DNA of 64,000 nt from Halovenus rubra (GTDB lineage Archaea > Halobacteriota > Halobacteria > Halobacteriales > Haloarculaceae), in the NCBI RefSeq assembly GCF_026586665.1, contig NZ_JAODIY010000004.1, positions 366,120 to 430,119 of the forward strand, written 5' to 3'. The position numbers and the translations under genes are program-made. Shown here in pieces: positions 26,875 through 49,335 of the stretch; position 1 is the first letter of the stretch, and the number at the start of each line of letters is the position of its first letter. The notes under the pieces are model-generated. The model saw nothing but the letters and a program-made list of their open reading frames with translations. It searched no databases and had not been told where the DNA came from.

Positions 26875-27453
26875 TTAGCGCAGTTCCGGCGGCTTTTCAT
26901 GTTCTCCGAGGTGCATCTCGGTGCGGTTGATGTGTGTGTGAGCCAGTGCCGTGACAGTGAATGTTATCAATACAAACACTGCTAACGCAACGCCTGGAAA
27001 TATATCGAAGTTGGACAACAATATTGCAGCAAGTAGAAGAACAACAGCGTCCACCGCAGAAAGGAACAAATAGAATGAACTCCACGGAATATCATTCCCG
27101 GCAACTAGTTCGAAATAGATATCCACCTCTTCAGCTGCGGGGGTAAGTGACGCAACACCTTCTCTGTCATCAAAATCAACAACGCCGATGTCGTCCATCC
27201 GCGGTAGATGTACTTGTTGCAATGATGTGTACACACGCTTGCGCTGGTCGTATGTCACCTCTTCCCATTCAACATCATTTTCCCATGCAGCGATCTGTTC
27301 AGATAGCTCCCCAAGCTCAGCATCTTCCCCGTTCTTTTTCAGGTAGTGGAGTGTGTACCGACGACGATGATTACTCAACAACTTGAAATAGTCATCGTAA
27401 TCAATTGATTCTGGGGACGAATCCGAGTTACCTGAATTAGTTTTCGTACTCAT
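26875..27453 (-). CDS. DUF7344 winged-helix membrane protein
   Basis: 192 residues. Residues 20-110 are the haloarchaeal DUF7344 winged-helix domain: YFKLLSNHRRRYTLHYLKKNG, then AAWENDVEWEEVTYDQRKRVYTSLQQVHLPRMDDIGVVDFD, recognisable by the R-x-V-Y-T-S-L-x-Q-x-H-L-P motif. Two hydrophobic helices near the C terminus (about 125-145 and 150-170) anchor it in the membrane. Presumed DNA-binding regulator of surface genes, by family and context. Paralogue of the protein at 38986. Confidence 0.85.
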   Translation of the reverse strand: MSTKTNSGNSDSSPESIDYDDYFKLLSNHRRRYTLHYLKKNGEDAELGELSEQIAAWENDVEWEEVTYDQRKRVYTSLQQVHLPRMDDIGVVDFDDREGVASLTPAAEEVDIYFELVAGNDIPWSSFYLFLSAVDAVVLLLAAILLSNFDIFPGVALAVFVLITFTVTALAHTHINRTEMHLGEHEKPPELR

Positions 27454-28020
27454 ACTATGTGCCTTGGTGGCCGTCAGTGCTGGTATCCCCACCATGGGGC
27501 ATCTCTTTACTGTTTGACTATGCCTCATTCATTGTTAATTAGCTGATATTGGTCCTAGTTAAGTGTGAGTTAGTTCCATTAAACAGACTTTTTCATGTCT
27601 TTGTACATACCATATCGGCTACGTTAACAACACTGTTATTTAAAACATTCTAAATAGTGGTTATACCCATCTCTGAGAGCAAACTAACCTACAGCAGTAA
27701 TTTTGCTGGGCTAAAAACCTCAAACAGTTTGGTGGATAATACCGGTATAATACCGCCAAGAACTGCTATTTCAGAGTGTCTCATCTCTTGTTCAGGTTGC
27801 TGTTTATCTCTGTAACTAGGTGGTACTTTAGAACGCAGAATGTGTTCGTAATCCCGCAACTACATTAAAACAGTTATGCTTGAAATTTGATATTATCTGG
27901 GACTTCAAGAAAATACTGAAGCTGAACAGAAACGCTACATGGAGTCCAACTACCAGCGGCGTCAGGCCCTCTCTCATACTAAAACAAATATTCGCTGCTA
28001 CTGAGCTAAACTGTCGCTAC
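27454..28020. other. Long AT-rich intergenic region
   Basis: About 570 bases without a credible gene or RNA. It is conspicuously AT-rich and serves as the divergent upstream region of the DUF7344 gene (left) and the HalX regulator (right). Confidence 0.5.
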
Positions 28021-28058: not shown

Positions 28059-28637
28059 ATGAGTTCAAACACCCGAGTGCTCATCGTTGAAGACCAGGAA
28101 GATGTCGCACAAGTGTATGCAAATATTTTAGAGACGGAGTATGAGGTACTAACAGCCCACTCGGGAGAGAAAGCGGTTGAGCTCATCGACGACACAGCTG
28201 ATATTCTGCTACTGGACCGCCGTCTTCCGGGTATGTCTGGCGATGAAGTGCTTGAAGAGATCAACAAGAACGAGCTCGGCTGCAAAGTGGTGATGGTGAC
28301 TGCAGTTGAACCGGACGTAGAAATCGTCGAGATGGATTTCGACGAATACCTTGTTAAACCAGTCAGAGAAGAGAAGATAACCGAGGTCGTTGAAAAAATG
28401 CTCGCGAGGAAAGAACATGATGTACAACTACAAGAGATGTTTGCTCTTGCAGAGAAACTCGCGACCCTCGAAGCAAAACTTGATATTGAGCAATTAAATA
28501 ACAGTGAGGAGTATCAGGAACTCCGAAACGAGTTTGCAACCCTACAGGAGTCTGTTGCAATCCCTGAATCCGATAGTGACCCGTATCTTGATGCAACCCG
28601 TGAGAAAATTCGAGCGTTGTTGGCTACCCGAGAGTAA
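28059..28637 (+). CDS. Response regulator, receiver + HalX domain
   Basis: 192 residues. The receiver domain has VEDQED (acidic pocket), phosphoacceptor Asp53 in LLLDRRLPG, Thr81 in VMVTA and Lys100 in YLVKP, all intact. The C-terminal helical HalX region runs from about 115 to 192 (LAEKLATLEAKLDIEQ, SEEYQELRNEFATLQ). The paralogue at 5369 shares the LLDRR-P-x-x-SGDEVL and C-K/R-VVMVTAV motifs. An orphan regulator at the left edge of the surface-protein region. A HalX output to the DUF1102 genes is conceivable but unproven. Confidence 0.92.
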   Translation: MSSNTRVLIVEDQEDVAQVYANILETEYEVLTAHSGEKAVELIDDTADILLLDRRLPGMSGDEVLEEINKNELGCKVVMVTAVEPDVEIVEMDFDEYLVKPVREEKITEVVEKMLARKEHDVQLQEMFALAEKLATLEAKLDIEQLNNSEEYQELRNEFATLQESVAIPESDSDPYLDATREKIRALLATRE

Positions 28638-28821: not shown

Positions 28822-29766
28822 ATGAAACGAATTGTGCTTACACTTACTGTACTTCTCGCTCTCGGATTGATACTTTTCCCGACAGTCGGCTTTCCACTCA
28901 GTATGGACAGTGGTCCCGACCCCGTAGAAGAAATTAGTCATCTAGAAATGATGCCAAGCGACGGGGCGAATGGCGCCTACGCTGTGTTCACTCCACAAGG
29001 GAAACTGCATCTCAACTTCTCGACTGCAAAACAGCAACAGGCCGGCACCGGAATAAATAATGATACGGTTACATATATCCATAATGTATTCAAAATTGCA
29101 AACGTAGATAACTCGTCAGTCCCAGTCTGGGTTGAATTAGAAGCCAACGACGTTGCAGTCGAATTTTATCGGTCATCTGACCCTACTGCATCAATTCAAG
29201 GAGAATCCAACGCAGTCCAAGTAAACGGGAACGACAATCAGCAGGTAGGTGTGCTCATCGATACAACAGGTAAGCAGATTCCAGAGTCGTTCACGTTCAC
29301 CGTGTACTCTAAGGCCGAAGACGACGAAAGTGAAGACGAGACACCGACTGAACAAGACCCAGTGACTGCTCCAAGCGAAGAGACACCGGTCGAAGAAACG
29401 CCCACAGATAACACACCAGACGAAGGCGGAGACGAGACTTCGGATGATGAAACGCCATCAAGCGAAACGCCGACCCAAAGTACCCCGTCGGAAACCGATC
29501 AGGGAGAGGGTGGGTCCGGAACAACCACGATAACACCGACACCAACGCAGACAGCAGAGCCTGGTGCAGGCGGAGCGCAACCTGATGGTGGCGACGATCA
29601 AGATACCGATGGTACTGAACAAGAAGGCGAAGTCATTGATCCCACCGACGACGGTCTCGGTGCAATCTTGGGCGGTCCCCTGTCCAATACACTGTGGTTG
29701 CTGCTTGTTGCTGCTGTTCTTGGCGTGGTCGGGTTCGCAGGGCTACGTAGGTGGGCAAGGAATTAA
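28822..29766 (+). CDS. DUF1102-related exported protein with Gly-Gly/TM/Arg C-terminal tail
   Basis: 314 residues. The signal peptide MKRIVLTLTVLLALGLILFP lacks a Tat RR. A globular domain of DUF1102 type follows (DGANGAYAVFTPQGKLHL, TYIHNVFKIANVDNSSVPVWVE), spanning about 30-165. Then comes a roughly 95-residue acidic, Thr/Pro/Glu-rich spacer (ETPVEETPTDNTP type) likely to be glycosylated. The C terminus is tripartite: AILGGPLSN, a hydrophobic helix and RRWARN. This resembles sorting tails such as GlyGly-CTERM. The rhomboid protease gene begins 33 bases after the stop codon. Confidence 0.8.
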   Translation: MKRIVLTLTVLLALGLILFPTVGFPLSMDSGPDPVEEISHLEMMPSDGANGAYAVFTPQGKLHLNFSTAKQQQAGTGINNDTVTYIHNVFKIANVDNSSVPVWVELEANDVAVEFYRSSDPTASIQGESNAVQVNGNDNQQVGVLIDTTGKQIPESFTFTVYSKAEDDESEDETPTEQDPVTAPSEETPVEETPTDNTPDEGGDETSDDETPSSETPTQSTPSETDQGEGGSGTTTITPTPTQTAEPGAGGAQPDGGDDQDTDGTEQEGEVIDPTDDGLGAILGGPLSNTLWLLLVAAVLGVVGFAGLRRWARN

Positions 29767-29798
29767 CTCACAGCAGTTCGGACAGCCAAACGGTCACG

Positions 29799-30641
29799 AT
29801 GGAAAACCATGTACCGGGTGGTTCAGAGGACTTCTCGTGGAAAATCAAGGCTGATGTTCAGTTTGTTGATCTCCTACTCCTTGGTAGCGTTCCAGTGGTC
29901 TTGTGCCTCGTCTTTTTTCTTCCCGAAGGACAACGGAGCCAGTTGGTTTTTGAGGTCGATAACCCGTCGATACTGACTGCGTTTACTGCCTCGTATGTTC
30001 ATTTGACTGAGTCTCATCTCACCGGCAACGTAGCAGTCTACCTTGTTGTAGCACCAATGTACTATCTCGTGTGCGTGTTGAGCGACCGACGGCCGCTGTT
30101 TTGGTATACGACTGTCGTTGTGCTCAGCGTCTTTCCATTTGCACTGGCTACAATGCAACTGTCTTTCCTTACTAAGCGGACTGTGTTAGGGTTCTCGGGA
30201 ATTAACGCAGCGTTTGCTGGCTTGCTTTGTTTTGCCGTTGTCCGCTATACGGGTGATGTACTTTCAAAACGGTTGAGCCATCATTACTCACCGGTCTTGC
30301 TCTTTGTTGTCTTTGGGATCGTTACACTGGTCTCGCTGCCAGATCGAGCTTGGCGAACTGAGCTGGCAATACTCTCTTTTACACTCGCTGGCCTGTATCT
30401 CGGGTTCCTCCTTCGCCAAAGTGGGATACCGACGATTGGTGATGTTCGGGAAGCCCTCGACAGTCCAGGATATGTCGAACTTGCGGGTAGCTCTCTTGGA
30501 ATTGTTCTCGTTTATCCGTTTGTTGCCTTCCAGCCGAAGATGGCTGTTGAGGGAGGGGCCCTTGATATCTATATTCATCTACTCGGGTTCGCTCTTGGAT
30601 TCATTGTTGTCTATATTTTCGTTACTGTTACTGAGGAGTAA
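29799..30641 (+). CDS. Rhomboid-family intramembrane serine protease
   Basis: 280 residues with seven or more hydrophobic helices. The rhomboid signature is intact: H68-x4-H73-x3-N77 in VHLTESHLTGNVAVYL, nucleophile Ser133 in GFSGINAAFAG, and catalytic His260 in IHLLGFALGF. Rhomboids cut transmembrane helices of other proteins. It is 32 bases downstream of the DUF1102 protein with a Gly-Gly tail, probably co-transcribed, which makes that protein the likely substrate. The start MENHVPGG is preferred over one inside the upstream gene. Confidence 0.85.
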   Translation: MENHVPGGSEDFSWKIKADVQFVDLLLLGSVPVVLCLVFFLPEGQRSQLVFEVDNPSILTAFTASYVHLTESHLTGNVAVYLVVAPMYYLVCVLSDRRPLFWYTTVVVLSVFPFALATMQLSFLTKRTVLGFSGINAAFAGLLCFAVVRYTGDVLSKRLSHHYSPVLLFVVFGIVTLVSLPDRAWRTELAILSFTLAGLYLGFLLRQSGIPTIGDVREALDSPGYVELAGSSLGIVLVYPFVAFQPKMAVEGGALDIYIHLLGFALGFIVVYIFVTVTEE

Positions 30642-34469: not shown

Positions 34470-34516
34470 CGTCACTCAGCCGTTCCGAGCGTGATTGAAT
34501 CGTACGCTAACTATCT

Positions 34517-34552
34517 CCCGCCCCGTGCGGGTTTCCCCAACTCGCTTTTTTT
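34517..34552 (+). terminator. Stem-loop plus T-tract after the subtilase gene
   Basis: CCCGC-CCCGT-GCGGG (34517-34531) is followed by a T7 run (34546-34552), 47 bases past the stop codon. A second pairing, CCAACTCGC with GCGGGTTGG, brackets the T-run. Confidence 0.6.
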
Positions 34553-34630
34553 ACCATGCGGGTTGGTTTCAAGAATACTGTAGATAAATCTGTAGCTAAA
34601 TTACTTAGATTAACTCATAACTGTTTGGGA

Positions 34631-34641
34631 AAAACTTATAT
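34631..34641 (+). promoter_or_regulatory. TATA box of the membrane cohesin gene
   Basis: AAAACTTATAT lies about 25-33 bases before the ATG at 34664, so this gene is transcribed on its own rather than by read-through from the subtilase. Confidence 0.55.
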
Positions 34642-34663
34642 TTCTGTGTGAAGAGCTAGCAGT

Positions 34664-35482: not shown

Positions 35483-35568
35483 CTAATCACCCTTTCAGGT
35501 GGTTCCGGAACCTGTTTCAGAGTGACAATAACTACCCTTAGTTACGTGCAACAAGCGAATAGTTCGTC

Positions 35569-38500: not shown

Positions 38501-38757
38501 AACTTGGTGATGTTCTGAATAATGGAAGGATCCACTCGGGCGATGCCATCATTGTGCAGCGCTACCTTGCCGGCTTGGATATTCCGGTTTCAACAGAAAC
38601 TGTCGAGACCTACGGTGATATTGACCAGGATGGTGACGTTACATCTGCAGATGTTTCCTTGCTATTGCAATATCTCGTTACTCCAAGAGACTCGAATCTG
38701 AGGCCCGGCAACGACAAGCAACAAGGAAATCTGATGACGGCGTTGAGGGTAGTATAA
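35569..38757 (+). CDS. Second secreted subtilase with cohesin-like and dockerin-like modules
   Basis: 1062 residues, paralogous to the 31197 protein over its full length and with the same domain order. Signal peptide (1-33), propeptide, S8 domain with Asp187 (IIDTG), His224 (GHGTHVSGT) and SGTSMAQPH, then carboxypeptidase-regulatory-like, ThuA-like, cohesin-like (NNQEGWLNIAGT) and dockerin-like modules. The first Ca loop is degraded (GDVLNNGRIHSGDA, lacking two usual Asp/Asn ligands); the second (GDIDQDGDVTSADV) is intact. Codon bias is weaker and AT content higher than in the paralogue, suggesting lower expression or divergence. Confidence 0.9.
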   Translation: MSRLSGLVGCLSLVLVFSLIWPWVGFTGGAVGAGQTPFDEKERNQTANFENQTVVVRFEPVDRDRLSGSDRPTVTERLKDHANKTQKPFLRWAKRTDSVAVKSSYWLTNAVLVSVSDKLSRAELVDHPHVVGLHNNFEVSVPDTGEPSSQTASATGDVTEGLDLLGVPEVWETYGVRGDGADVAIIDTGVDITHPDLTLPSSRWAHFDKEGNLVDSQPHDNNGHGTHVSGTVVGPTNPAGDVPAYGVAPEATLWHVKALDSSGVGTFEQLVAAMEWVVTESDVDIVGMSLGAEGYHTQLIEPAQHLRDAGIILTTSVGNSGPETTSSPGNYQSAFTTGAVDSVGNVADFSSGNRVDTANFTDEVPDSWETSYIKPDVVAPGIDITSTSTGTGYETLSGTSMAQPHTAGIFALLVSALGTTDRERFQHIIKKTADDREAIPKNREGSGIIDATAAIGAILGDDGVSGTVQNTGGQPLGKAQITVEETGATVRTESDGTYSVPLAPGQYTITATAFGYESQTKPVTVSDNNQITTQFSLNSAPDLNIVDGLPKRLGSGISAASELTVANATKLTIDNRGTINGSLTVTVDGDEVSFGTPIPLSPGVNDVNIGIQVGDKAKGTLGLSYTVESGGMVNAVDGRRVTVLNEQYSVGVVEDNSSNWGQTWANKLEGRLPAKYSVDSVSAQNVIETPHRYDSYFVHSIDDTIVDEWMEATSDIGVVYTSQHAGPDALNQRSTAIGDPDTVRATPGLRTWRVVEEHPLFDGVATRGDTITVHKEDVFADGASFSGTEGTIIAEAANGKGAVAIDSSRNDIMLTSVGFGWVLPGEHTRDALSVVTNAVTYFLDSEPTSKYSLGIADGSVSNRVPNTTVRLSARGDEIAGYQSFIEFDPDRLQIDTVSPMTFETVYELNNQEGWLNIAGTAPEGRTDPILAELSVTVNTTATDNVTLFLGGESKLNGKMGSKIDAVRNRGQITIRERQLGDVLNNGRIHSGDAIIVQRYLAGLDIPVSTETVETYGDIDQDGDVTSADVSLLLQYLVTPRDSNLRPGNDKQQGNLMTALRVV

Positions 38758-38985: not shown

Positions 38986-39606
38986 ATGTCTGACGTAACA
39001 TCACAAATACAGAGCAGTGAGGATACAGGAGGGGAAAAACAAAGTCGCGGTATTGGAATCGAAACAACCAATATCGCTGAGGAGAAGGTTGAGTCAATCT
39101 CGCGCAATGAGATATTTTATCTATTGAGTAACGAACGGCGCGTCGCTGTTCTTAGATATTTAGCCGAACAGGATAGTTCGGAACAACAGCTGGGTGGTGT
39201 TGTCGAGAAAATAGCTAGTTGGGAAAACGATAAACCAGTCGTCCAGCTAGGTAATGATGAACGCCATCGAGTCTATACTTCATTGCGGCAGGCACACCTT
39301 CCAGCGCTGGATGAAGCCGATGTAATCAATTTCAACAAAAACCGTGGGATCGTTAGCAGAGGAAACTCGTTTGACCGTGTCCATGAGTATCTTGAGTATG
39401 ATCCATCTACAGAATTAAACGATGAGCAGACAACGTCGTTGTTTATCATCTCTTTACTCGGTCTTACCGGACTTCTCTTCTCGGGACTGAGTGCAACTCC
39501 CGTCTTTCCATCTTTTGGACTGGGGTATAGTGCTGTCATATTTATTACACTCGTCCTAACAATAATTGTTTCGATAGGATGCTTTTTGAACTCTCGCTTG
39601 AATTGA
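38986..39606 (+). CDS. DUF7344 winged-helix membrane protein
   Basis: 206 residues. The winged-helix region (about 38-135) carries IFYLLSNERRVAVLRYLAEQD and HRVYTSLRQAHLPALDEADVINF, matching the DUF7344 protein at 26875 motif for motif. Two C-terminal transmembrane helices (about 148-168 and 178-200) follow. Presumed regulator, close to the subtilase genes; targets unknown. Confidence 0.83.
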   Translation: MSDVTSQIQSSEDTGGEKQSRGIGIETTNIAEEKVESISRNEIFYLLSNERRVAVLRYLAEQDSSEQQLGGVVEKIASWENDKPVVQLGNDERHRVYTSLRQAHLPALDEADVINFNKNRGIVSRGNSFDRVHEYLEYDPSTELNDEQTTSLFIISLLGLTGLLFSGLSATPVFPSFGLGYSAVIFITLVLTIIVSIGCFLNSRLN

Positions 39607-39786
39607 CTGACCTACTGTGTGCCTGTTGTAGCCAGATAATTGAGACACCTAAACAATTTTATTGAACTATGCTGTCAGTAAGGGTTATCTGAATACAGAA
39701 ACTGTTGGGCAACAAGCGTTTTCAAGCACAGCATATCCGTATTCAGGCAGGTCAAAACTACGTCCAGTCTCTTGTGAATATATAAC

Positions 39787-39945
39787 ATGGAAAAGCCACA
39801 CACTCCATATCCCCTCGGTCGTTGTCCGGAGTGTGAGTCAAAGATTACCTCGGAACAGCTGGTTTTGAAGTTCAAACCAAAAGACGGAACAGTAAAAACG
39901 CTCGCATTTTGCAACAACTGCGGCGAAGTCATTCCTCCTGTATAA
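39787..39945 (+). CDS. Small zinc-ribbon protein (CPEC...CNNCG)
   Basis: 52 residues: MEKPHTPYPLGRCPECESK ... TLAFCNNCGEVIPPV. The two knuckles C-P-x-C and C-x2-C-G, 27 residues apart, make a treble-clef or ribbon zinc site like those of the many haloarchaeal CPxCG small proteins, several of which affect biofilm, swarming or stress phenotypes. A TATA-like GAATATATAAC lies immediately upstream. Too short for usual gene calls. Confidence 0.72.
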   Translation: MEKPHTPYPLGRCPECESKITSEQLVLKFKPKDGTVKTLAFCNNCGEVIPPV

Positions 39946-40205
39946 CGGGTTAATGGGGCAACAATACGGGGCACCGAAGTACTTCTCGGCGATATCTTAG
40001 CTGTAAGTGTTCGATTTTGGGCGAGCAGGTGGTTTTCAAGCAGTTACCTACATCAGAGCCGATAACAGTATATATAATTACCGACAAATTCACGTCTATA
40101 ATTTGCATATCTCTGGAATACGTTTGCTTATATCGGAAGCTCTCTGATTAGCATCTAGCCCTTTTAATTCGAGTAACAGAGTCACTGATTCGCGTAACAC
40201 AACAG

Positions 40206-40859
40206 TCAGTTGTCCGGTCGGAATGAAGGGTCTTCGTCTACATCACCGACGAGAGTCACTTTCTCATTGAATACTTGATCGTACTCGGTGGCGTCGATTC
40301 CATCAGTGTATACTCGCAGCCCAAACGTGATGCATTTTCCAACTTCAAGCTCGACCGCACTGTCTTTTCCCATGATTGGATCTATATCAAGAACGTTAGT
40401 TCCCACTGTCTCGTCGGTAGCTTCCCCTACGTAACACATTAGTCTGGAAGTACCCTGATATTGTGCATCGATACCATCAGGAAAGTCATCATCAGTTGGC
40501 TTTTTAATAAAGAAGGCAACATCCTCTAAACCTTGGTTACAGACTTGGACGAGATCGTCGAACCACGTTAATGCGGACGTATTTGTTCCCTCTCCAGGTT
40601 CAACGCCATTTTTTGAGTCGAACGCATCGTGTTCTGAAATATCAATACCTATCGTTTCATCACCGTCCATACTGGCGAAATGCTTGCTGTTTCGTGACCG
40701 CGAAACAGTCTCAAATTTTAAATATGCTGATGAATCTCCGGCGACGTTGATTGTGACATCGCGTTGTGCCTCTACTGTACTGAAGGCGCTTGTCCCAGCT
40801 AGCCCACTACCAACTGCGGCAGAGCCACCGATTGCAACGAGTATTGTGCGTCGTTTCAT
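40206..40859 (-). CDS. DUF1102 exported protein with SipW-type N terminus
   Basis: 217 residues. The N terminus MKRRTILVAIGGSAAVGSGLAGTSAFSTVEAQRD has twin Arg, a hydrophobic stretch and the G-T-x-A-F-S motif of SipW-dependent signal peptides. It is followed by the E/A-x-R strand that starts the mature DUF1102 domain (DVTINVAGDSSAYL). The mature protein is acidic beta sequence with a conserved W-F-D-D-L-V-Q-V-C-N-Q-G core, also found in the 43242 protein. Probable extracellular fibre-like or S-layer-associated subunit (inference from TasA/camelysin analogy). Confidence 0.82.
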   Translation of the reverse strand: MKRRTILVAIGGSAAVGSGLAGTSAFSTVEAQRDVTINVAGDSSAYLKFETVSRSRNSKHFASMDGDETIGIDISEHDAFDSKNGVEPGEGTNTSALTWFDDLVQVCNQGLEDVAFFIKKPTDDDFPDGIDAQYQGTSRLMCYVGEATDETVGTNVLDIDPIMGKDSAVELEVGKCITFGLRVYTDGIDATEYDQVFNEKVTLVGDVDEDPSFRPDN

Positions 40860-41162
40860 AATGCCAATCACCCGTATGAGAGGTGTCTGTAGAAAAACAT
40901 ATGTCTCCTACAAGTATTGTATTCGTGTGCCTGACATTCAAGACTGCTGCACAGACACGTCTCAGGTATTATCTGAACAACAGTTATCTTTGCTAAAAGA
41001 TTCTCTTATCCAGAGTTGGATTTTCCCCCAGCACTCAGCTGTCCCACTTCAATTGGTGTAGGCTTCTCCAAACCTATCGTGGAGCTCTCACACTGGCACC
41101 GAAAAACGACTTCTCCTATCTTGAACTCTGCTTATCTCCAGTGAGACACCGTCGGTCGATTT
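40860..41162. other. Intergenic region between two exported-protein genes
   Basis: About 300 bases with no convincing gene. It serves as the promoter region of the 40206 gene and the downstream region of the 41163 gene. Confidence 0.4.
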
Positions 41163-42062
41163 TCACTCTGAAGTAGTGTCAGTGCTGACGTTTCCACACT
41201 GTGCGGGCGTTTTCTTTCCCCCTCCGAACGAGCCACGACTATTCCGAATAACCCAGCCCGCTTTCCCATCACACGGTGATGTCTTGCATCGCCAGTTCCT
41301 ATCACCGGCGAACTGAACCTTTTGTCCACGTATCCCTTCGAAATCGCGTTCGTTAGCGTACCCATCAGCTGACTTTTGATCCATGGTAGCTGTTCCAGAT
41401 GTGCTCGAACCAGTCCTGTAACGATACCACTCAGCCCCACCGTGAAGAACGACCTCTTCAACTGCGACATCGGTTTTCCATTTAATACCAACAACTTCAC
41501 CATCGTCATCGTGCCAGTTGGGCTCTACTGACGGGTTCAACTCCGAAGGGTTTGTGTCAGATTTGGGTGCGAATCCAACCAGAACGATTCTTTGCCTGTC
41601 GATACAGGAACATTCGAGATTGACTTCGGAGTTCCGTTGGGCATTGATTAGTGTGTGACCACCCTCACTTTCAGCGCGAATGTCGAAGCCAAACTCTCCA
41701 ACCGCTTGCGTGTTATCTCCACAGCTAAATGTAACCGTGAGAGGCTTTTGTTCTCCAAGACCCAACGAATCTGGGAATTGATAATCTAGCAGCTGAATGC
41801 CACCTCCTGACAGATTGGCTGAGCCATCGACACGCGAAAGTGGGTCATTTGTTTGGTTACGTAACGGAATGTTGAATGTTTCCTTGCAGCCAAACTCAAA
41901 CGTCTCGGGAATCTCCATGCCGAGATACGCATCTTCGTCGCCTTCGACTTGAATTTGCATTTTCCGCTGTGTCTCGGCAGTCGTCGTCCCACGACTTCCG
42001 ACTAACAACCCGGTTCCAGTCAGTGCGGCTGATGAGCCAAACAAAAATCGTCTCCGTTTCAT
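41163..42062 (-). CDS. Cys-rich exported protein, divergent member of the SipW-type set
   Basis: 299 residues. The N terminus MKRRRFLFGSSAALTGTGLLVG is Tat-like, followed by a mature start (TQRKMQIQVEGDEDAYLGMEI) that matches the DUF1102 proteins. The body is unlike them: an Ig-like segment (ETFNIPLRNQTNDPLS, PLTVTFSCGDNTQAVGEF), about eight Cys (GCK, SCG, ECSC, RCKTSPC, QCG) and a C-terminal segment with VVGIKWKTDVAVEEVVLHGG. The canonical GTxAFS motif is replaced by VGSRGTTTAET. Function unknown; probably extracellular. Confidence 0.7.
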   Translation of the reverse strand: MKRRRFLFGSSAALTGTGLLVGSRGTTTAETQRKMQIQVEGDEDAYLGMEIPETFEFGCKETFNIPLRNQTNDPLSRVDGSANLSGGGIQLLDYQFPDSLGLGEQKPLTVTFSCGDNTQAVGEFGFDIRAESEGGHTLINAQRNSEVNLECSCIDRQRIVLVGFAPKSDTNPSELNPSVEPNWHDDDGEVVGIKWKTDVAVEEVVLHGGAEWYRYRTGSSTSGTATMDQKSADGYANERDFEGIRGQKVQFAGDRNWRCKTSPCDGKAGWVIRNSRGSFGGGKKTPAQCGNVSTDTTSE

Positions 42063-42588
42063 GGTGTCATAGTGTAAAGGGCGAACTCTGTGTAACTCAC
42101 GTTCGTACTTGTCCAGAACGCATTCCGTGCGTATAAAACCTCATTACCTTTCACGTTCTAAACGAGTTTCTCACAAGCAAAACGCCATGTAACGTGTCTG
42201 TAACACACTCTTCTGTCTCTTTTACAAAATGCATACACCTATCTATTATTGGTGTGACAGGAGGTCCCTGAAACAACAACATCCTTGAATTTCAGTTTGA
42301 AATTAGTTCTACCAGCCTTATGATGTGGTCCGATTTTCAAGTCGTTTTGATGTTATGGCTGCCCTGAGTTGTAACTGGTCCGAAACGCCAAGCTAGTGAT
42401 TTTTTCGTCTGCTTCAACGACTCACGTGAGCGCTTTCAGGGCTAGTGATATGAACACAGCTTTCGGCTCAGGAAGTATAATACAATAGATGTGTGTTTTC
42501 TATTGATAGTTACGTCCGGCACCGCAGATGAGGTCTTTCACACGAAGTGTTGCGGTCTACCTGGACGCAACAACAACAACAAGCAAAC
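42063..42588. other. Divergent intergenic region between exported-protein genes
   Basis: About 525 bases without a credible gene. It contains promoters for the leftward Cys-rich protein and the rightward DUF1102 pair. A perfect 10-base palindrome CTCACGTGAG lies near 42421. Confidence 0.4.
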
Positions 42589-43203
42589 ATGCCAATGAAA
42601 CGACGAAAATTCTTGATCGGCGCAGGCGCACTGGCTGCCGGTGGCGCGACTGCTCTCGGAACCGGCGCATTCAGCAGAGTTGAAGCGGAACGTACAGTGA
42701 GTATTGATGTCGAAACGGACTCAAATGCATATCTGGGATTGAGTAAGTTATCTAATTCGTCGAACAGTCAGCAGTTCGCCGAAGTCAGTGACGGAAAACT
42801 CTCGGTCAATATCGGCGACTCAGGTAATGGAGGCTCTGGTGTCAACCCTGATTCAACAACATACTTCGACGATATGTTCCAACTCAGCAACAACGGGGTA
42901 GCCGAAGCTAATATCTCCTACAGTTTCCCCACGTACAATTCAGGAAGCAATGGACACCCCGACCTTACGAATAATTGGAAAACGCCCACCGATAGTAACT
43001 GGGCTATTTGCTTCTATTATCTCGACAGTAACGATAACCGTCAAATGATCACACCGAACGACGCTGTCTCGCTTGATGCAGGAAATTCCGATAAGATTGG
43101 GGTTCGTACGATGACGCATGGTCTCGACGCGACGACGAATGACCCGCTGATTGATGGTTCTATCACAATTGTCGCAGACGCACCTGACGCTGGTAGTCCA
43201 TAG
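42589..43203 (+). CDS. DUF1102 exported protein with SipW-type N terminus
   Basis: 204 residues from MPMKRRKFLIG (MKRRKFLIG at 42595 is equally possible). The signal contains GATALGTGAFSRVEAER, the SipW-dependent pattern GTxAFS followed by the mature start TVSIDVETDSNAYLGL. The mature domain is Asn/Ser/Asp-rich beta sequence (VNPDSTTYFDDMFQLSNNG). It is a tandem paralogue of the next gene, 38 bases away; the two share nearly identical opening codons and are probably one transcript. Candidate substrate of the signal peptidase at 45896. Confidence 0.85.
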   Translation: MPMKRRKFLIGAGALAAGGATALGTGAFSRVEAERTVSIDVETDSNAYLGLSKLSNSSNSQQFAEVSDGKLSVNIGDSGNGGSGVNPDSTTYFDDMFQLSNNGVAEANISYSFPTYNSGSNGHPDLTNNWKTPTDSNWAICFYYLDSNDNRQMITPNDAVSLDAGNSDKIGVRTMTHGLDATTNDPLIDGSITIVADAPDAGSP

Positions 43204-43241
43204 GACTACATTCCGTTTTCCACCCGGGCACCACAACAAAA

Positions 43242-43835
43242 ATGAAGCGACGAAAATTCTTGGTTGGTACGGGTCTGAGTGCGACTGCAGGAGTTGGTCT
43301 TATTGGAACGGGAGCGTTCTCACAGGTTGAGAGCGAGCGTAATCTGACAATTGGTCTTGCCAAAGATCCAAAGGCATATCTTGGACTTGACGTTGCTGAC
43401 ACGCCGAACGGTGAATACGGATATGTCGACGACAACGGCAGACTTAGAATCGCGATGTCTGATGAAAACCCATCAGCAGCCAGTTCGCCGATGGGCTTGG
43501 GCGTCAATTCGGATGCTACTTCTTGGTTCCAGAACGTCTTCACCGTCTGCAACCAGGGAACTAAAGAAGCGTCGGTGTACGTCCAAGACGACGAAGACTG
43601 GCCGACAGTCCCCTTGGGGGAGGGGTATCCGGAAGAGGGTAAGCGGCGCCTTGATTTTCATCTCGAAGAGCACAGACAACAATCGATTCTCGGCGAGCAA
43701 AACGCAGTCACTCTCATTGAGGGGTCCTGTGCTATGATCAGCGTTACGATTAGAGCTCATAGCCTTTCTGAGGGAGATCAGGTACTCGCTGAGATAGATA
43801 ATCAAGTCACGATCAACGCCAATAGCTTCGACTAG
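43242..43835 (+). CDS. DUF1102 exported protein with SipW-type N terminus
   Basis: 197 residues. MKRRKFLVGTGLSATAGVGLIGTGAFSQVESER is the SipW-type signal (GTGAFS). The mature domain begins NLTIGLAKDPKAYLGLDV and shares SWFQNVFTVCNQGTKEASVYV with the 40206 protein. A charged central region (EGKRRLDFHLEEHRQQ) is unusual for the family. Second gene of the pair with 42589. Confidence 0.85.
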   Translation: MKRRKFLVGTGLSATAGVGLIGTGAFSQVESERNLTIGLAKDPKAYLGLDVADTPNGEYGYVDDNGRLRIAMSDENPSAASSPMGLGVNSDATSWFQNVFTVCNQGTKEASVYVQDDEDWPTVPLGEGYPEEGKRRLDFHLEEHRQQSILGEQNAVTLIEGSCAMISVTIRAHSLSEGDQVLAEIDNQVTINANSFD

Positions 43836-44317
43836 ATTACGCCTCGCTGGCGTTCTTGGACGAGTACGCAGGGAGTCAACAGCCACACTATACTCCAAAT
43901 TTTAGCTTATATATGCTAGTATACGATCGTAACAGGCTATGATACCGCCAGTCTCTCGATTGTACTGGTGCTCGATCTGGTAAAGCAACTAGCATTTGTA
44001 TAAGATATTCTATATACTATCTAACTCATACGCATCTAATGCTACTACATTGTCGTATGATTAAAACTCAAGAAGAGTTTTTGTTTATCTATAGCTGAAT
44101 TTCTGTTCTACGTATGGTATAGCAGTCCTGACTGGACTCTCAGGCACTAACTGAGCACCTGTCGTAGTCGATTATTGAATTCGATTTTTGATTCAGTGGG
44201 AGTAATCCTATATTACATGCATTAGAATCTTAATTTGAGATCCTGTGATGGCTTTTCACGGTCACCACCTTGGAGTCGTCAAGTGGAGAATTCAGCCTGA
44301 AACAACTGTGAATATGC
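43836..44317. other. AT-rich intergenic region before the histidine kinase
   Basis: About 480 bases, strongly AT-rich, with no gene or RNA recognised. It presumably carries the kinase promoter. Confidence 0.45.
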
Positions 44318-45745
44318 ATGAACGCTAGACTGCAATCAGATTTAGAGCGACAACCTGCACAGACCGAAACAATCTCGATTCTTGTTGTCGACGATGAGCA
44401 AGATTATGTTGACATTACCGCAACACATATTCAGAGACAACAAAAGGATGTGACCGTCTCTACGGTCGAAGACTCTCGAACTGCGATTACACGCTTAGAG
44501 GAAACAGAGGTCGACTGTATTATCTCGGTGTACGATATGACGCCACTGACCGGGATCGAACTTCTCCGGAAAGTCAGGGAAGATTACGGTGACCTCCCGT
44601 TTATTCTGCTGACAGCGAAAGGTTCCGAAGATTTGGCTAGTCAAGCCATTTCAGCGGGTGTCTCCGATTACTATCAGAAAGGATTTGGAAACGATTACTA
44701 TGAAAAGCTCGCTAACAGGGTAACCTCTCTCGTAAAAAAACGTCGCGAAAAGCAAGGAACGGCGAGCAGACGAACGTTCTTCGATAACGCACCGTTTGCC
44801 GCTATTGAGTGGGACAGCCAGCTTGATGCCGTCCAACTCAACGAGACTGCACGCGAGATATTAGGCTACTCGAGTACTGAATTCGAAGGATGTAGCCTGA
44901 AACAGATTGTTCCAGAGTCGGAGCGCGATACGGTTCAGAAAATAGTTGGTAATCTGCTCGCAGAGAAGGGAACGCAAACCCACAAAACAGAGATTGTTAC
45001 CAACAATGGGAAGCGTATTTCTTGTCAATGGCGGAGTCGGGCGTGTACCGACGAAAGCGGCGAAATTGTTGCCATTTACTCCCAGTTTCACGCGCTGTCG
45101 GAATATGAAGAGCTGAAGTTGAAAAACCAGAAGCTAAACCGATTAGTCTCAGTTGTGAGTCATGACCTGCGTAACCCAGTTCAGTCATTGTCTCTCTCGC
45201 TTGCAGCGGTCGAGCAAAACGGTGCTGATGAAGAGAACATCGGCCGTTGTCGCCGCTCACTCGATCGAATTGAGGCGCTTATTGATGACCTTCTAACAAT
45301 CGGGAAGCAAGATGGAGATCTTAACACTCAGCTAATCGGGCTGGAGACGCTGGTAGACGAGTGCCGAGAAAATATCGAAGTTGGGCCTGCTACCGTTATA
45401 TGTACAACAGAACTAAAAATAATGGCAGACCCAGGACGGGCATTACAACTGCTCGAAAATCTCATCTCGAACGCAATCAAACACGGTGCAGACAGTGGGA
45501 TTATTCGTATTGGGACAATAGAAAACGGGTTCTACGTCGAAGACGACGGGCCGGGGATCCCGCCTGAAAAGCGTGACACGGTCTTTGAGTACGGGTACTC
45601 GAGAACCACCACCGGGACTGGTTTTGGTTTGACAATTGTACAGGAAGTCGCAAAGGACCATGGTTGGGATGTTGTGCTGACAGAGAGCAAAGAAGGAGGT
45701 GCTCGGTTCGAGATTTTGGATGTCGAGACCGCCGAACAATCGTGA
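44318..45745 (+). CDS. Sensor histidine kinase: receiver-like, PAS, HisKA, HATPase
   Basis: 475 residues, soluble. The receiver-like domain (18-135) keeps the acidic pocket (VVDDEQDY), Thr in LLTAKGSED and Lys121, but the phosphoacceptor position is Val71 (CIISVYDMTPLTG). A PAS domain spans about 150-262. HisKA has His282 in VVSHDLRNPVQS. HATPase_c has LENLISNAIKHG (N box), EDDGPGIPPEKRD (G1) and GTGFGLTIVQEVAKDHGW (G2). It lies between the DUF1102 genes and the signal peptidase, so control of the surface module is plausible. Confidence 0.92.
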   Translation: MNARLQSDLERQPAQTETISILVVDDEQDYVDITATHIQRQQKDVTVSTVEDSRTAITRLEETEVDCIISVYDMTPLTGIELLRKVREDYGDLPFILLTAKGSEDLASQAISAGVSDYYQKGFGNDYYEKLANRVTSLVKKRREKQGTASRRTFFDNAPFAAIEWDSQLDAVQLNETAREILGYSSTEFEGCSLKQIVPESERDTVQKIVGNLLAEKGTQTHKTEIVTNNGKRISCQWRSRACTDESGEIVAIYSQFHALSEYEELKLKNQKLNRLVSVVSHDLRNPVQSLSLSLAAVEQNGADEENIGRCRRSLDRIEALIDDLLTIGKQDGDLNTQLIGLETLVDECRENIEVGPATVICTTELKIMADPGRALQLLENLISNAIKHGADSGIIRIGTIENGFYVEDDGPGIPPEKRDTVFEYGYSRTTTGTGFGLTIVQEVAKDHGWDVVLTESKEGGARFEILDVETAEQS

Positions 45746-45895
45746 GTGTCCCAACTCACCCGTCACGTCGCAGTATCGAACACGATGCACTCTGTGTGTA
45801 AGCATAGGTGGTCGAATTATTAGCATATCATCCGAATGAATGTATGAAAAAAGATACCAGAGCTGTGGGTTAACGTCAGCACAGACAGGTCAGGC

Positions 45896-47041
45896 ATGAA
45901 GATTAAACGAGTAGCTTGGTTGAGTCTTCAGTTGTTGGTCGCACTATGTCTGGTCGTGTTAGTTATCGGCCAGGTACTTGGACAGCCCATTCTGTTGAGT
46001 TATGTCACGACTGGTAGTATGGAGCCAACGATAGATACCGGCGATGGGTTCATCGCGGTTCCCACTGAGTTAGCAGGAGAGCCTGAGGTGGGCGATGTTG
46101 TCGTGTTCAATGCACAGGAAATAGAGAACGGGCAGCTGACGACACATCGTATCGTTGGCGAGACTGAGAAAGGATTCGAAACGAGGGGTGACGCGAACCC
46201 GTTTACTGACCAAGACGGGGGCGAGCCATACGTAAAAGAGCCCCAAATCGAGGCTGTTGCGTGGCAACCAGGGGAAGACGTGGCAACGATTCCGCGACTC
46301 GGTGACGCCGTCTCGGGCGTTCAATCTCTGCTGGCATCCATTCAGAGTCTGTTGGCTCAGTCGCTCGGGTTAGATGCCCTTCTCGGAATGCAGGGAATGG
46401 GGTATCTCGTTTTGCTTCTATCAATTATCCTCTATTTGCTGGATATTAAACTAGCAGACAGAGAACGCTACAGCCGAAAGTTATCGAGAAATACAGGCAT
46501 GAGCACTCATCTGCTTGTCATCCTATTCACCCTACTCGTGATGGCTGGTGGCACTGCTGCCATGGTGGGGCCTGCCGAGACCCATGAGTTCGGTATCGTT
46601 AGCGCCGAATTTAACAGTGAGTCGCCTGACCTGATTCAACAGGGAACAACAGAATCGTACGATTATGAATTTGTCAACACTGGAATTCTCTCAACGGTTG
46701 TCGCCTTGGAACCTGCAGGTGACAATATCAAGACAGATTCTAAATCGATGACAATCTCTGGACGAGGAACCGAAAACGTGAGCGTCGCTATTACTGCACC
46801 ACCCAACACGGGGTTCTACCAGTCATATCTCAAAGAACACAGATACATTCATACCCTGCCAAAGTCGATGATTCTATCACTTTATGATATCCACCCATGG
46901 CTCCCCATCCTCGTTATCAACGCAGAAATTGGTATTCCGTTCTATCTACTTGGCAGGACTATTATGGGTACAGGATCGACCAGATTTGAACAACGAACCG
47001 GCCCGTCTCGGTTTGATCGCCTTGTCGGTCGACTCAGGTGA
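45896..47041 (+). CDS. Archaeal signal peptidase I, SipW-like, with long C-terminal extension
   Basis: 381 residues. After an N-terminal helix (9-28) come the type I signal peptidase boxes: Ser41 in TTGSMEPTIDTGD, then His84 in TTHRIVGE in place of the bacterial Lys, and Asp99 in RGDANPFTD. This is the Ser-His-Asp form of archaeal/ER/SipW enzymes. A second helix lies near 166-182. From about 205 there is a third helix and an extracytoplasmic Ig-like domain (PAETHEFGIVSAEFN ... VSVAITAPPNTG), which normal signal peptidases lack, and a final hydrophobic segment. It lies 52 bases before the DUF5305 gene. Confidence 0.9.
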   Translation: MKIKRVAWLSLQLLVALCLVVLVIGQVLGQPILLSYVTTGSMEPTIDTGDGFIAVPTELAGEPEVGDVVVFNAQEIENGQLTTHRIVGETEKGFETRGDANPFTDQDGGEPYVKEPQIEAVAWQPGEDVATIPRLGDAVSGVQSLLASIQSLLAQSLGLDALLGMQGMGYLVLLLSIILYLLDIKLADRERYSRKLSRNTGMSTHLLVILFTLLVMAGGTAAMVGPAETHEFGIVSAEFNSESPDLIQQGTTESYDYEFVNTGILSTVVALEPAGDNIKTDSKSMTISGRGTENVSVAITAPPNTGFYQSYLKEHRYIHTLPKSMILSLYDIHPWLPILVINAEIGIPFYLLGRTIMGTGSTRFEQRTGPSRFDRLVGRLR

Positions 47042-47093
47042 CAGAGATAGTTTTTCAAAAAAGACAAACATAACGAAAATATTACAATAAACA

Positions 47094-48251
47094 ATGGATA
47101 ACGACAGACTGCTAGTAAAGCACAGAGTAGGGAAGTACTTCTGGATAGTTGTTCTCTTGTGTGTCGGTATTGCATTAGTCGGTGGGTATTTTACCGTCAC
47201 GACATACACATCTAGCCCAACTGAGATCGAACAGTTTGAGGAGGCAAGTTGGTCATCAACTACGTCGCTCTCGCATCAGGCAACCGTGATGAAGGGAACC
47301 GATTTGTATGAGCAAGGCTCGGTGTTACGAAATCAACGTTCCTATTTTACGCAGGTAATGCCGATAACAAATGGGTCACTCGAGTATAGCTACCTCGCAA
47401 CTGGGGGTGGAAACGTTGATATCGAGACCACAGTAACACTTGTTCTTCGGTCGACTGCCGAAGAAGACGGTGAAGCGGTTACGTACTGGGAAACACAGGA
47501 ACAACTCAAATCGGTGAGCCACCAGTCAGTCGAGCCCAGCGAAACGATTACGGTTCCGTTCGGAATGAACATTTCCGCTCTCGTCGACAACGCAGAACAG
47601 ATAGACAATCAGCTTGGGGGGTCTCCAGGAACCACTGAGGTTGCGTTGGTTTCAGAGTTGTCAGTAGCTGGGGAGCGGAACGGAAAAGAAACAAGCGAAA
47701 CGTACAGTTACGAGACACGTCTCGACATCGGGTCGTCTGTGTATCAGTACACTGACGTCGGCCCGTTTGAGGAATCTGGCCAGCAACTCGGACAACGTGT
47801 CGGCGAGAGTGAGTACAGTCCACTGCGAACAACCGGGGGGCCGCTTTTAGCTCTCATCGGAATCAGCGGACTGGTTGTAGTCAGTATCAGTCACTACCGT
47901 GAGACGTTTGAAGTCAGTGAGCAGGCCTTGGCTTGGGCTGAGTATTCCAACACCTACGATGAGTATTCCGAGTGGATTAGTGAGGGACGGGTGACAGACG
48001 ACAGTATACCGTCCTCTACGGTTGAGGTTGCCTCGGTCAAAGACCTCGTTGACGTTGCGGTAGATTCTGACCGGCGTGTCATCCACGACGCTGAACGTCA
48101 GGAGTGTCTTGTTATTGATGACGGGACAGCGTACGTTTATTCAACACCACCCGAACCACAAACAGACAGACCGGAAGAACCGCTTTCGACGGCTGAATCT
48201 GACGAATCGGCGGCCTCTGACGATGAGGCGACCTCCCAAGAAGCGAAGTAA
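47094..48251 (+). CDS. DUF5305 membrane protein, partner of the signal peptidase
   Basis: 385 residues. An N-terminal helix (about 15-38: YFWIVVLLCVGIALVGGYF) leads to an extracytoplasmic beta domain of DUF5305 type (about 45-260: TDLYEQGSVLRNQRSYFTQVMP, YSYLATGGGNVDIETTVTLVL, ETITVPFGMNISAL). A second helix (about 252-272) and an acidic cytoplasmic tail (VDLVDVAVDSDRRVIHD ... AYVYSTPPEP) follow. It is directly behind the signal peptidase gene, an arrangement that suggests one surface-protein processing unit. Biochemical role unknown. Confidence 0.8.
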   Translation: MDNDRLLVKHRVGKYFWIVVLLCVGIALVGGYFTVTTYTSSPTEIEQFEEASWSSTTSLSHQATVMKGTDLYEQGSVLRNQRSYFTQVMPITNGSLEYSYLATGGGNVDIETTVTLVLRSTAEEDGEAVTYWETQEQLKSVSHQSVEPSETITVPFGMNISALVDNAEQIDNQLGGSPGTTEVALVSELSVAGERNGKETSETYSYETRLDIGSSVYQYTDVGPFEESGQQLGQRVGESEYSPLRTTGGPLLALIGISGLVVVSISHYRETFEVSEQALAWAEYSNTYDEYSEWISEGRVTDDSIPSSTVEVASVKDLVDVAVDSDRRVIHDAERQECLVIDDGTAYVYSTPPEPQTDRPEEPLSTAESDESAASDDEATSQEAK

Positions 48252-48446
48252 GACACGTTATCGAGGTCTACACACACGAAATAATGCCAGTTTAATTGGA
48301 TGAGGTGACGAGACCGCTGTACAGGGTCGTATCCGTTTTAGAAACCTCAACCCACAATGAACGAGCTAGAACAGAAAAATGATAGTTCGTATAATATAAA
48401 CCAATTTCAGCGAACTAATATACCCTCACTCTACCAAGGCAATTCA

Positions 48447-49013
48447 ATGACAGAGAGTCCGAAAGTTGTCGCAGTCTGTGGAAGCTTACGGGATGATAGT
48501 TCAACGCGTGTCGTTTTGGCACATGTTATGGCAGCTGCTAAAGCGTCTGGAGCACAGACCTCAGTTATCGACCTCCGGGAGTACGACCTTCCGTTATATA
48601 ACGGCGACAAGAAAGATGCCGGAGACGCACAGAAGCTCCGCGAGAACATCAAAGTGGCTGATAGCATTGTTTTAGGGACGCCAATTTACCACGGCTCAAT
48701 CGCGTCGCCGCTGAAAACAGCACTGGACTACTGTGGCTTTGATGAGTTTGAAGACAAGCCGGTTGGTCTCGTGACCGTTGCTGGTGGACGGTTTCCGACA
48801 CCCTCACTACTCCATTTACGCACTATTTGTGTCTGGCTTCGAGCAGTCCCGCTCTCACACCAGGTGGGCATACCGAACATTAGCAGTGTTATCGAAGACG
48901 GACAGTTGGTTGACAACACGGCGCTAGAACGAGCAGAGAAACTGGGCGACAAAATAGTAGAGTACTCATATCTACTCGACAATCAGCGGACAGACCCGCC
49001 AACGATAGGGTAG
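48447..49013 (+). CDS. NADPH-dependent FMN reductase family protein
   Basis: A 188-residue flavodoxin-fold oxidoreductase. FMN phosphate loop VCGSLRDDSSTRVVL (about 9-23), the LGTPIYHGSIASPLKTALD motif that contacts the flavin, and VGLVTVAGGRFPTPS. The family reduces FMN or quinones/azo compounds with NAD(P)H. The start MTESPKVVAVCGS is preferred over an upstream Met that adds 30 polar residues. It converges with the small regulator, one base between stops. Confidence 0.88.
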   Translation: MTESPKVVAVCGSLRDDSSTRVVLAHVMAAAKASGAQTSVIDLREYDLPLYNGDKKDAGDAQKLRENIKVADSIVLGTPIYHGSIASPLKTALDYCGFDEFEDKPVGLVTVAGGRFPTPSLLHLRTICVWLRAVPLSHQVGIPNISSVIEDGQLVDNTALERAEKLGDKIVEYSYLLDNQRTDPPTIG

Positions 49014-49014
49014 T

Positions 49015-49317
49015 TCACTGTCTGGTGTCTTCGAAAGCCATCACGAGTTGCTTACCGACGGAAGTGAGTGTATACTTCTCGTCGCGTTTTCTGACGAGTT
49101 CTCCTGACAGTTGGTCAAGATGATAATTAAACCGTCCGGAGTCTGAGACACCAACCTGCCGTCTAAGCGTTGAGAATGATAAACCCTCAGTATCGGAGAC
49201 CGCATACAGTTCGGTGAGAATTGCAATCCGGGTCTCATCAGCGAGCAACGACCCAATTGCCGCCTGCAGCGTGGGGTTATCAGCGTTCGAGTTTGTCGAG
49301 TCGTGTTTTGCGTTCAT
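49015..49317 (-). CDS. Small winged-helix (ArsR-like) transcriptional regulator
   Basis: 100 residues. Winged-helix signature: LQAAIGSLLADETRIAILTELYA, FSTLRRQVGVSDSGRFNYHLDQLSGELV and KYTLTSVGKQLVMAFE. This is the pattern of haloarchaeal ArsR/DUF7347-type regulators. The start is the ATG at 49317; a GTG at 49329 adds MSIA. It is downstream of the possible RHH protein on the same strand (gap 18 bases), so the two may be one operon. Ligand unknown. Confidence 0.8.
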   Translation of the reverse strand: MNAKHDSTNSNADNPTLQAAIGSLLADETRIAILTELYAVSDTEGLSFSTLRRQVGVSDSGRFNYHLDQLSGELVRKRDEKYTLTSVGKQLVMAFEDTRQ

Positions 49318-49335
49318 TGCTATACTCACCCTCTG

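Follow-up and report, generated by a model that had tools for sequence, protein, structure and literature searches.

Which kind of extracellular system is encoded at 40206-48251 of a 64,000-nucleotide stretch of the Halovenus rubra genome (the whole stretch is called the window here, and all coordinates are positions in it), where proteins with twin basic signals are encoded close to an endoplasmic reticulum (ER)/SipW-type signal peptidase? An earlier note, made from the letters alone, had read these genes as a dedicated haloarchaeal fibre or matrix system with SipW-dependent substrates of the TasA/camelysin pattern. Its open reading frames and signals were recovered, as were the kinase, the S26 peptidase and the DUF5305 protein; what changed is the family to which the fibre subunits belong and the extent of the locus.

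Pilins and their signals

By sequence homology, three short, single-domain proteins of the window are pilins of the Tat-fimbria (tafi) kind, a system with components TafA-TafF (Galeva et al., iScience 2025 28:111793, as cited in PMC12687288). The first is encoded at 40206..40871 on the minus strand (likely start MKRR at 40859; Tat signal RR...GTS-AFS), and the second (42589..43203; RRKFL...GTG-AFS) and third (43242..43835) on the plus strand, both with the pattern MKRRK...GTGAFS. As single sequences they matched PDB entry 9p0a, titled "Structure of Natrinema sp. J7-2 Tafi pilus," at 3.3e-9, 2e-15, and 1.2e-9, respectively, and a profile built from 34 pilin relatives matched the same entry at 6.2e-45.

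The only informative NCBIfam models matched by the pilin-type proteins of the window were TafE, TafA, and TafC. TafE scores were 59.7 (40206), 58.3 (42589), and 68.7 bits (43242) against a cut-off of 155, and TafA scores were at most 37.2 bits against 190. A fourth protein, encoded at 41163..42062 on the minus strand, combines an RR signal and an N-terminal pilin-like region with a Cys-containing C-terminal domain; it matched the TafC model over residues 15-148 with 31.7 bits (cut-off 410) and has a relative at L002:1511-2362 (1.7e-17). Its signal is divergent, as the earlier note had observed, beginning MKRRR... and ending GSRGTTTAE, and this TafC-like protein is a possible minor or tip subunit. 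Since all of these equivalog cut-offs were missed, the window proteins are better regarded as relatives than as orthologues of the named Taf subunits. The description of these proteins as multiple DUF1102 substrates holds only in part: against the Pfam threshold of 22.2 bits for PF06510, 43242 scored 27.3 bits, ORF 42547 fell short with 18.2 bits, and the Pfam search returned no match to 40206 or 41163.

The signals themselves are strongly constrained. All 71 relatives with a twin-basic signal carry RR, never KR, RK, or KK, and R5, R6, A27, F28, and R35 are invariant across 34 aligned pilins, so the signal pattern picked out earlier is not a matter of chance. The four window proteins (40206, 41163, 42589, and 43242) all have RR. 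This strict use of RR makes Tat the most likely export route as judged from the signals. Pilin signals are weakly hydrophobic (Kyte-Doolittle hydropathy 1.4-1.8), compared with 2.9 for the RR-less TafF-like protein described below; generic Tat-signal models of Pfam and NCBIfam gave weak matches to the window proteins, and TatC genes were found in the genome. The Ala-Phe at the end of the pilin signals, which is invariant, has a parallel in TasA, a SipW substrate with Phe at P2' (PMC10269814).

Signal peptidase, DUF5305, and the comparison with TasA-SipW

Beyond the pilins lies an S26B (Sec11/SipW-type) signal peptidase (45896..47041, plus strand), which scored 60.2 bits with TIGR02228 (cut-off 51.85) and matched SEC11A at 2.3e-5 in a profile search. 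It shares the Ser-His-Asp arrangement of Sec11/S26B peptidases, with S41 and H84 kept in all 17 relatives and D99 in 16, confirming the catalytic type proposed earlier. It differs from them in about 200 extra C-terminal residues, a half of the protein that holds two further predicted transmembrane (TM) segments and a non-TM segment of roughly 100 residues; the earlier note had proposed a putative Ig-like domain in this peptidase. The extension is present in peptidases of taf-like loci (e.g., 374-388 aa). A general Sec11-like peptidase of 280 aa, a weaker match encoded elsewhere in the genome (G000:C39), is without it, and its extra length is N-terminal. The existence of this general peptidase makes a dedicated role for the 45896 enzyme reasonable, as the earlier note had supposed for the system as a whole. 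In the peptidase tree, the window-type enzymes form a clade (support 100/99) apart from those of canonical taf clusters, and both types are present in G000 and in G026. A scan of viral contigs found none that encode the peptidase.

The peptidase gene is followed by that of a DUF5305 membrane protein (47094..48251, plus strand; PF17231, 170.8 bits), with two TM segments, a domain of about 210 residues between them, and an acidic tail. Among relatives, 35 of 40 DUF5305 genes sit no more than 10 kb from an S26B peptidase gene, and the protein is a candidate assembly partner. Common ancestry of DUF5305 and the extra half of the peptidase was considered and rejected, as the profile comparison aligned a single TM segment with a probability of 2.9%. 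A profile search returned no convincing relative of DUF5305 among solved structures.

The peptidase, together with a conserved Phe that follows the signal end as it does in TasA, is what might suggest an archaeal SipW-TasA biofilm-matrix system, in which TasA/camelysin-type fibres would be exported by Sec and processed by a SipW-type enzyme. In addition, a relationship between the donor-strand fibres of TasA and those of archaeal bundling pili has been described (PMC9674648), and the bundling pilus structure is among the best fold matches of the window pilins. The peptidase, for its part, matches the SipW equivalog model NF046067 weakly, at 36.5 bits against a cut-off of 190. Against this reading, the SipW-signal model TIGR04088 matched nothing above its cut-off in the genome and nothing in the window, and the M73 model PF12389 (TasA/camelysin) had zero matches in the genome; with both models positive on the B. 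subtilis control, membership in the SipW/TasA/camelysin group was rejected. Moreover, the strict RR suits Tat and not Sec, and sequence homology points to the tafi pilin. The comparison with TasA by structure prediction that the earlier note had proposed also came out against its reading. For the AF2 models of 42589 and 43242, whose confidence is low to moderate (pLDDT 57 and 68.5, the latter for 43242), the thread filament 7pnb, the tafi pilus 9p0a, and the bundling pili 7ueg were all within the top four Foldseek matches, with TM-scores of at most 0.49 and a best E-value of 0.0047 for 43242, and no TasA entry appeared in the top 50 of either of these moderate-confidence models. We therefore consider a SipW-TasA matrix system very improbable.

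The fibre system of the window is thus of the known tafi kind, and not the Bacillus TasA/SipW matrix system. With Bacillus tapA-sipW-tasA it has in common fibre subunits co-encoded with an ER-type signal peptidase, a Phe just past the cleavage region and, likely, donor-strand logic. It differs in the missing SipW-signal and M73 matches, in the probable use of Tat instead of Sec, and in a protein family that is another one by sequence; no TapA homologue was seen. Bundling pili (AbpA, 7ueg) and the thread filament (Saci_0406, 7pnb) are donor-strand complemented (PMC9715654, PMC9674648); both rank within the top four fold matches of the window pilin models, and no sequence match between them and the window pilins was found.

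Alternatively, the pilin-like proteins might be a mixture of surface proteins exported by Tat (adhesins or S-layer-associated) without ever forming polymers, with the peptidase a spare. Many paralogues in related genomes do carry long unrelated C-terminal extensions (e.g., 360-459 aa in L002 and 869 aa in L037), a feature unusual for fibre rods, and the fibres of the window and their expression are predicted from the genes. Such a collection is nevertheless hard to reconcile with three window pilins that are short, single-domain, and homologous to a solved pilus subunit, or with the peptidase and DUF5305 accompanying pilins in loci across the order, and we regard it as very unlikely.

Extent of the locus and the canonical taf cluster of the genome

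The tafi-type system is larger than 40206-48251 and includes genes at 26875, 28822, 29751, and 38986, all of which the earlier note had missed. At 28822..29766 (plus strand) lies a TafF-like membrane-anchored DUF1102 protein (32.0 bits, above the Pfam threshold) with a Sec-type signal lacking RR, a Pro/Thr-rich stalk, and a C-terminal TM segment at residues 290-308; it matched TafF of the same genome at 2e-11, but NCBIfam TafF gave no match. Overlapping its gene by 16 bp is that of a rhomboid-like intramembrane protease (29751..30641, plus strand), which keeps GFSG and the C-terminal His motif. Although its Pfam Rhomboid score of 18.6 bits is below the cut-off of 22.6, a relative in L044 passes with 23.4, and the GxS serine and C-terminal His motifs are retained in 8/8 relatives.

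Regulatory genes occur in both parts of the locus. A DUF7344 regulator of the type found in taf loci (26875..27528, minus strand; PF24035, 108.9 bits) has a winged-helix-type domain and a C-terminal TM segment, and matched its counterpart in the canonical taf cluster at 5e-43; a second (38986..39606, plus strand; 83 bits) has two C-terminal TM segments. All three DUF7344 genes of this genome lie inside its two taf-like loci. DUF7344 was rejected as a marker for taf loci in general, for other genomes carry up to 33 copies. A HalX-type response regulator (28059..28637, plus strand; Response_reg and HalX domains) precedes the TafF-like gene, an order also found in three other window-type loci (L038, L044, and L064). 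The histidine kinase at 44318..45745 (plus strand; Receiver-PAS-HisKA-HATPase, no TM segment) is missing from the other window-type loci examined. Bacterial-type promoters and terminators showed no excess over shuffles, the models being bacterial and not informative for an archaeon.

A distance of 8-10 kb, occupied by unrelated-looking genes, lies between the pilins and the TafF-like and rhomboid genes, and a subtilase/cohesin island (31197-38757) separates the 28059-30641 part from the 38986-48251 part, so that the operon is not continuous. The two parts could accordingly be unrelated loci that are neighbours by chance. Yet in L038, L044, and L064 the response regulator, TafF-like, and rhomboid genes are beside the pilins or one gene off, in L041 and L043 the TafF-like and rhomboid genes sit between pilins and peptidase, and among 41 genomes 8 of 9 strong rhomboid matches fall in taf-like loci. 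A chance neighbourhood is thus improbable, and we treat the two parts as one interrupted system. The window gene set recurs in six loci from several families of the order (L038, L041, L043, L044, L046, and L064), with gaps in L044 and L046.

Elsewhere in the same genome, a canonical taf cluster (L033) also holds a peptidase, DUF7344, DUF5305, and a rhomboid. In this genome the S26B peptidase type, DUF5305, DUF7344, and the rhomboid are each confined to the two taf-like loci, the one exception being the weaker Sec11-like copy mentioned above. The window locus shares with tafi the pilin homology, the twin-arginine signals, the start RR...G-x-G-A-F-S/T...VEAxR, and TafC-like and TafF-like partners. 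It differs in having three short pilins as opposed to one TafA and one TafE, in scores below the equivalog cut-offs for all Taf models, in a shorter and displaced TafF-like gene, in an additional kinase and HalX regulator, and in its separate peptidase clade and inserted island. Taken together, the Taf scores below cut-offs and the separate peptidase clade suggest a second tafi-like system at this locus, paralogous to the canonical cluster and divergent from it, a reading to which we assign a probability of roughly 0.83.

Possible assembly and significance

From the genes at this locus, we infer roles in assembly, tethering, and release. The pilins would fold in the cytoplasm and exit by Tat, after which the co-encoded peptidase may cut at the signal end, before Ala-Phe, and free an N-terminal strand. 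This strand could then fill the incomplete beta-sandwich of the subunit that follows, and subunits joined in this way would make up a thin donor-strand fibre. Assembly would take place in the membrane at a site made of the peptidase and DUF5305, with the TafC-like 41163 as a putative minor or tip subunit; the TafF-like 28822 may tether the fibre, and the rhomboid possibly clips 28822 to release it. DUF7344 and the two-component proteins would switch expression.

For the archaeal thread, Sec export was proposed, and the assembly machinery was not identified and the assembly pathway unknown (PMC9715654). A tentative and rather doubtful extension of our reading is that the locus and its relatives across the order represent a complete, previously unassembled archaeal donor-strand pilus machinery, in which DUF5305 and the peptidase, whose extra domain would be extracytoplasmic, would be the platform, and the rhomboid would cut the TafF-like base, releasing or resetting fibres. 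If so, fibre shedding would be under proteolytic control.

Overall, two ancient paralogous tafi-type versions coexist in one genome, and a fixed gene set (the peptidase with its extra half, DUF5305, the TafF-like anchor, the rhomboid, and DUF7344) accompanies tafi-type pilins across several haloarchaeal families. As this set travels with the pilins, it narrows the candidates for factors of assembly, anchoring, and release to a few. The logic of encoding fibre subunits together with a Sec11-type peptidase, with Ala-Phe as the putative site, is common to this locus and Bacillus TasA-SipW, although the protein family is not.

Pilin-like genes of the core locus

The ORFs named in the earlier note all lie where it placed them, and its description of their signals was accurate. 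The three pilins (40206-40871 on the minus strand; 42589-43203, in an ORF opening at 42547, and 43242-43835, both on the plus strand) start with the twin basic residues of MKRR and have G-T-x-A-F-S signal ends (GTS-AFS in the first, GTG-AFS in the others), while the divergent fourth, TafC-like protein (41163-42062, minus strand) starts with MKRRRFLF and has a signal end unlike theirs. Domain searches also recovered the histidine kinase (44318; receiver-PAS-HisKA-HATPase) downstream of the pilins, followed by the S26 signal peptidase (45896) and the DUF5305 gene (47094). The DUF1102 label held for 43242, which is over the Pfam threshold, but for none of the other three. The note had missed a second DUF1102 protein over threshold (28822) and two DUF7344 genes (26875 and 38986). 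The cluster is bordered on the right (48357-49329) by genes of the NADPH-dependent FMN reductase-like and ArsR-type HTH kinds; neither belongs to it in the relatives examined.

The NCBIfam Taf models were the only informative family models for these proteins: the pilins scored 68.7, 59.7, and 58.3 bits against TafE and 41163 scored 31.7 bits against TafC, all well below the equivalog cut-offs. Among solved structures, the three pilins matched one convincing chain, 9p0a (2e-15, 1.2e-9, and 3.3e-9), titled “Structure of Natrinema sp. J7-2 Tafi pilus,” which a profile built from 34 relatives matched at 6.2e-45. Tafi (“Tat-fimbriae”) are described as thin, Tat-exported, TafA-based haloarchaeal surface appendages (Galeva et al., 2025, cited in PMC12687288). 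We consider the window locus to be a tafi-like fibre system, with a probability of about 0.83. The comparison with TasA by structure prediction, proposed in the earlier note, did not favour TasA: for AF2 models of two pilins, built from alignments of window and related-locus sequences only (pLDDT 57.3 and 68.5), the top four fold matches were the thread 7pnb, tafi 9p0a, the bundling pili 7ueg, and a FimA entry. The fold scores were modest, and therefore this evidence backs the sequence result and cannot stand alone.

Two other Halovenus loci (L001 and L002) encode pilins of ~360-460 residues with long C-terminal extensions past the pilin domain; these may be decorated or adhesive subunits. Clustered arrays of at least eight pilin paralogues in related genomes (L040 in G016:C360, and G032:C1:2530000-2560000) suggest repertoire expansion of fibre subunits. 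The window's own genome (G000) also encodes, on contig C2, a lone 869-residue protein (L037:6694-9303) with an N-terminal tafi-type Tat signal and a pilin-like region, and no peptidase, DUF5305, or DUF7344 homologues in the 18 kb fetched.

Export signals and the signal peptidase

The earlier note took the pilins for SipW-type substrates such as TasA or camelysin. TasA, cleaved by the dedicated SipW, has Phe at P2′ (PMC10269814), and the alignment of pilin relatives shows an invariant Ala-Phe where the signal ends; an aromatic residue at this position is the feature shared by TasA and the window pilins. Membership of that family was nevertheless rejected, as the SipW-cognate signal model scored nothing above its cut-off across the genome and had no match at all in the window, the TasA/camelysin model had none in the genome, and the B. 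subtilis controls were positive for both. Moreover, a twin-basic signal could be recognised in 71 of the 78 distinct pilin and TafC-like ORFs from the loci fetched, and it is RR in every case and never KR, RK, or KK, which points to Tat. The remaining seven ORFs are incomplete or have a wrong start, except two with RR-less, strongly hydrophobic signals. Signals of that kind, in the TafC-like or pilin-like proteins L011:2542-2925 and L038:11226-11963, suggest that Sec instead of Tat may serve some subunits. The window pilin signals are only weakly hydrophobic, whereas the TafF-like protein, which lacks RR, has an ordinary Sec-type signal, as do the cohesin protein and subtilases of the window. 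TatC domains are encoded three times in the genome, all at one place.

The peptidase scores 60.2 bits with TIGR02228, over the cut-off of 51.85, and its relatives give a profile that matches human SEC11A. Seventeen relatives all share S41 and H84, and 16 of them keep D99, consistent with the predicted Ser-His-Asp enzyme. The ~200 additional residues of the window enzyme hold two further predicted TM segments and then a non-TM segment. Both TIGR02228 matches in the genome (E <= 0.001) lie inside taf-like loci; a general Sec11-like enzyme of 280 residues, with a weaker match, is encoded elsewhere. Across 41 genomes, 35 of 40 DUF5305 genes have such a peptidase no more than 10 kb away and 27 have a pilin no more than 15 kb away; many of those outside these distances sit on short contigs. 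The peptidase/DUF5305 pair recurs on named plasmids of Natrialba magadii, Haloferax larsenii, and Haloarcula sinaiiensis. On the first and last of these (L054 and L055), its neighbours bear NosL or PKD-domain annotations and no gene is annotated as fimbrial; one neighbour in L055 has a tafi-type RR signal.

The wider locus and its inserted island

In two loci of the same genus (L038 and L064), a response regulator, TafF-like protein, rhomboid, DUF7344 protein, two pilins, another candidate subunit, peptidase, and DUF5305 protein form a single compact run, and most of this set occurs, rearranged, in L041, L043, and L044. The TafF-like (28822) and rhomboid-like (29751) genes overlap by 16 bp in the window and adjoin in all six of the examined window-type loci holding both (the window and these five relatives). 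Eight of nine strong rhomboid matches in the 41 genomes lie inside taf-like loci, and the GxS serine and C-terminal His are kept in all eight copies read. All three DUF7344 genes of G000 lie inside its two taf-like loci, although such genes are far more numerous in other genomes.

Between the window's TafF-like/rhomboid pair and its pilins lie two subtilases (31197-34469 and 35569-38757) flanking a membrane-anchored cohesin protein (34664-35482); both subtilases carry a type I dockerin and a carboxypeptidase-regulatory-like domain. This insertion was not seen in the five relatives and appears to encode a cohesin-dockerin protease complex of the cell surface. A cohesin-like stretch also occurs within the second subtilase (8e-11).

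A probable second, tafi-like system and a possible mechanism

A canonical taf cluster (L033; G000:C34:143000-162000) lies ~250 kb away on the same contig. It comprises a peptidase, TafF (322 bits), TafE (227 bits), TafA (153 bits), DUF7344, a large TafC-like protein, DUF5305, and a rhomboid-like protein. Its TafE is over the NCBIfam cut-off, whereas its TafA, TafF, and TafC fall short of theirs; each component of the cluster has a counterpart in the window. In the peptidase tree, the window groups with L038, L041, L042, L043, L046, and others (support 100/99), separate from canonical-taf peptidases (93/95). The separate clades, and the presence of both types in G000 and in G026, from another family of the order, indicate at the sequence level that these are two old paralogous systems.

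From the homology, signals, catalytic residues, and gene sets, we infer that folded pilins would be exported by Tat, cut before Ala-Phe by the co-encoded peptidase, and polymerised through donor strands, a mode described in the literature on thread, bundling, and TasA fibres (PMC9715654; PMC9674648). DUF5305 and the extra half of the peptidase might form the assembly site, with the TafC-like protein as a minor or tip subunit and two-component and DUF7344 proteins exerting control. The TafF-like protein might act as a tether; its release by the rhomboid is a doubtful part of the scheme.

Tafi pili and a tafi structure are already known. The subtilase/cohesin island inserted in the locus is new here, as, apparently, are a conserved partner set that includes a rhomboid linked to the TafF-like anchor and a divergent second version of tafi coexisting with the canonical one.
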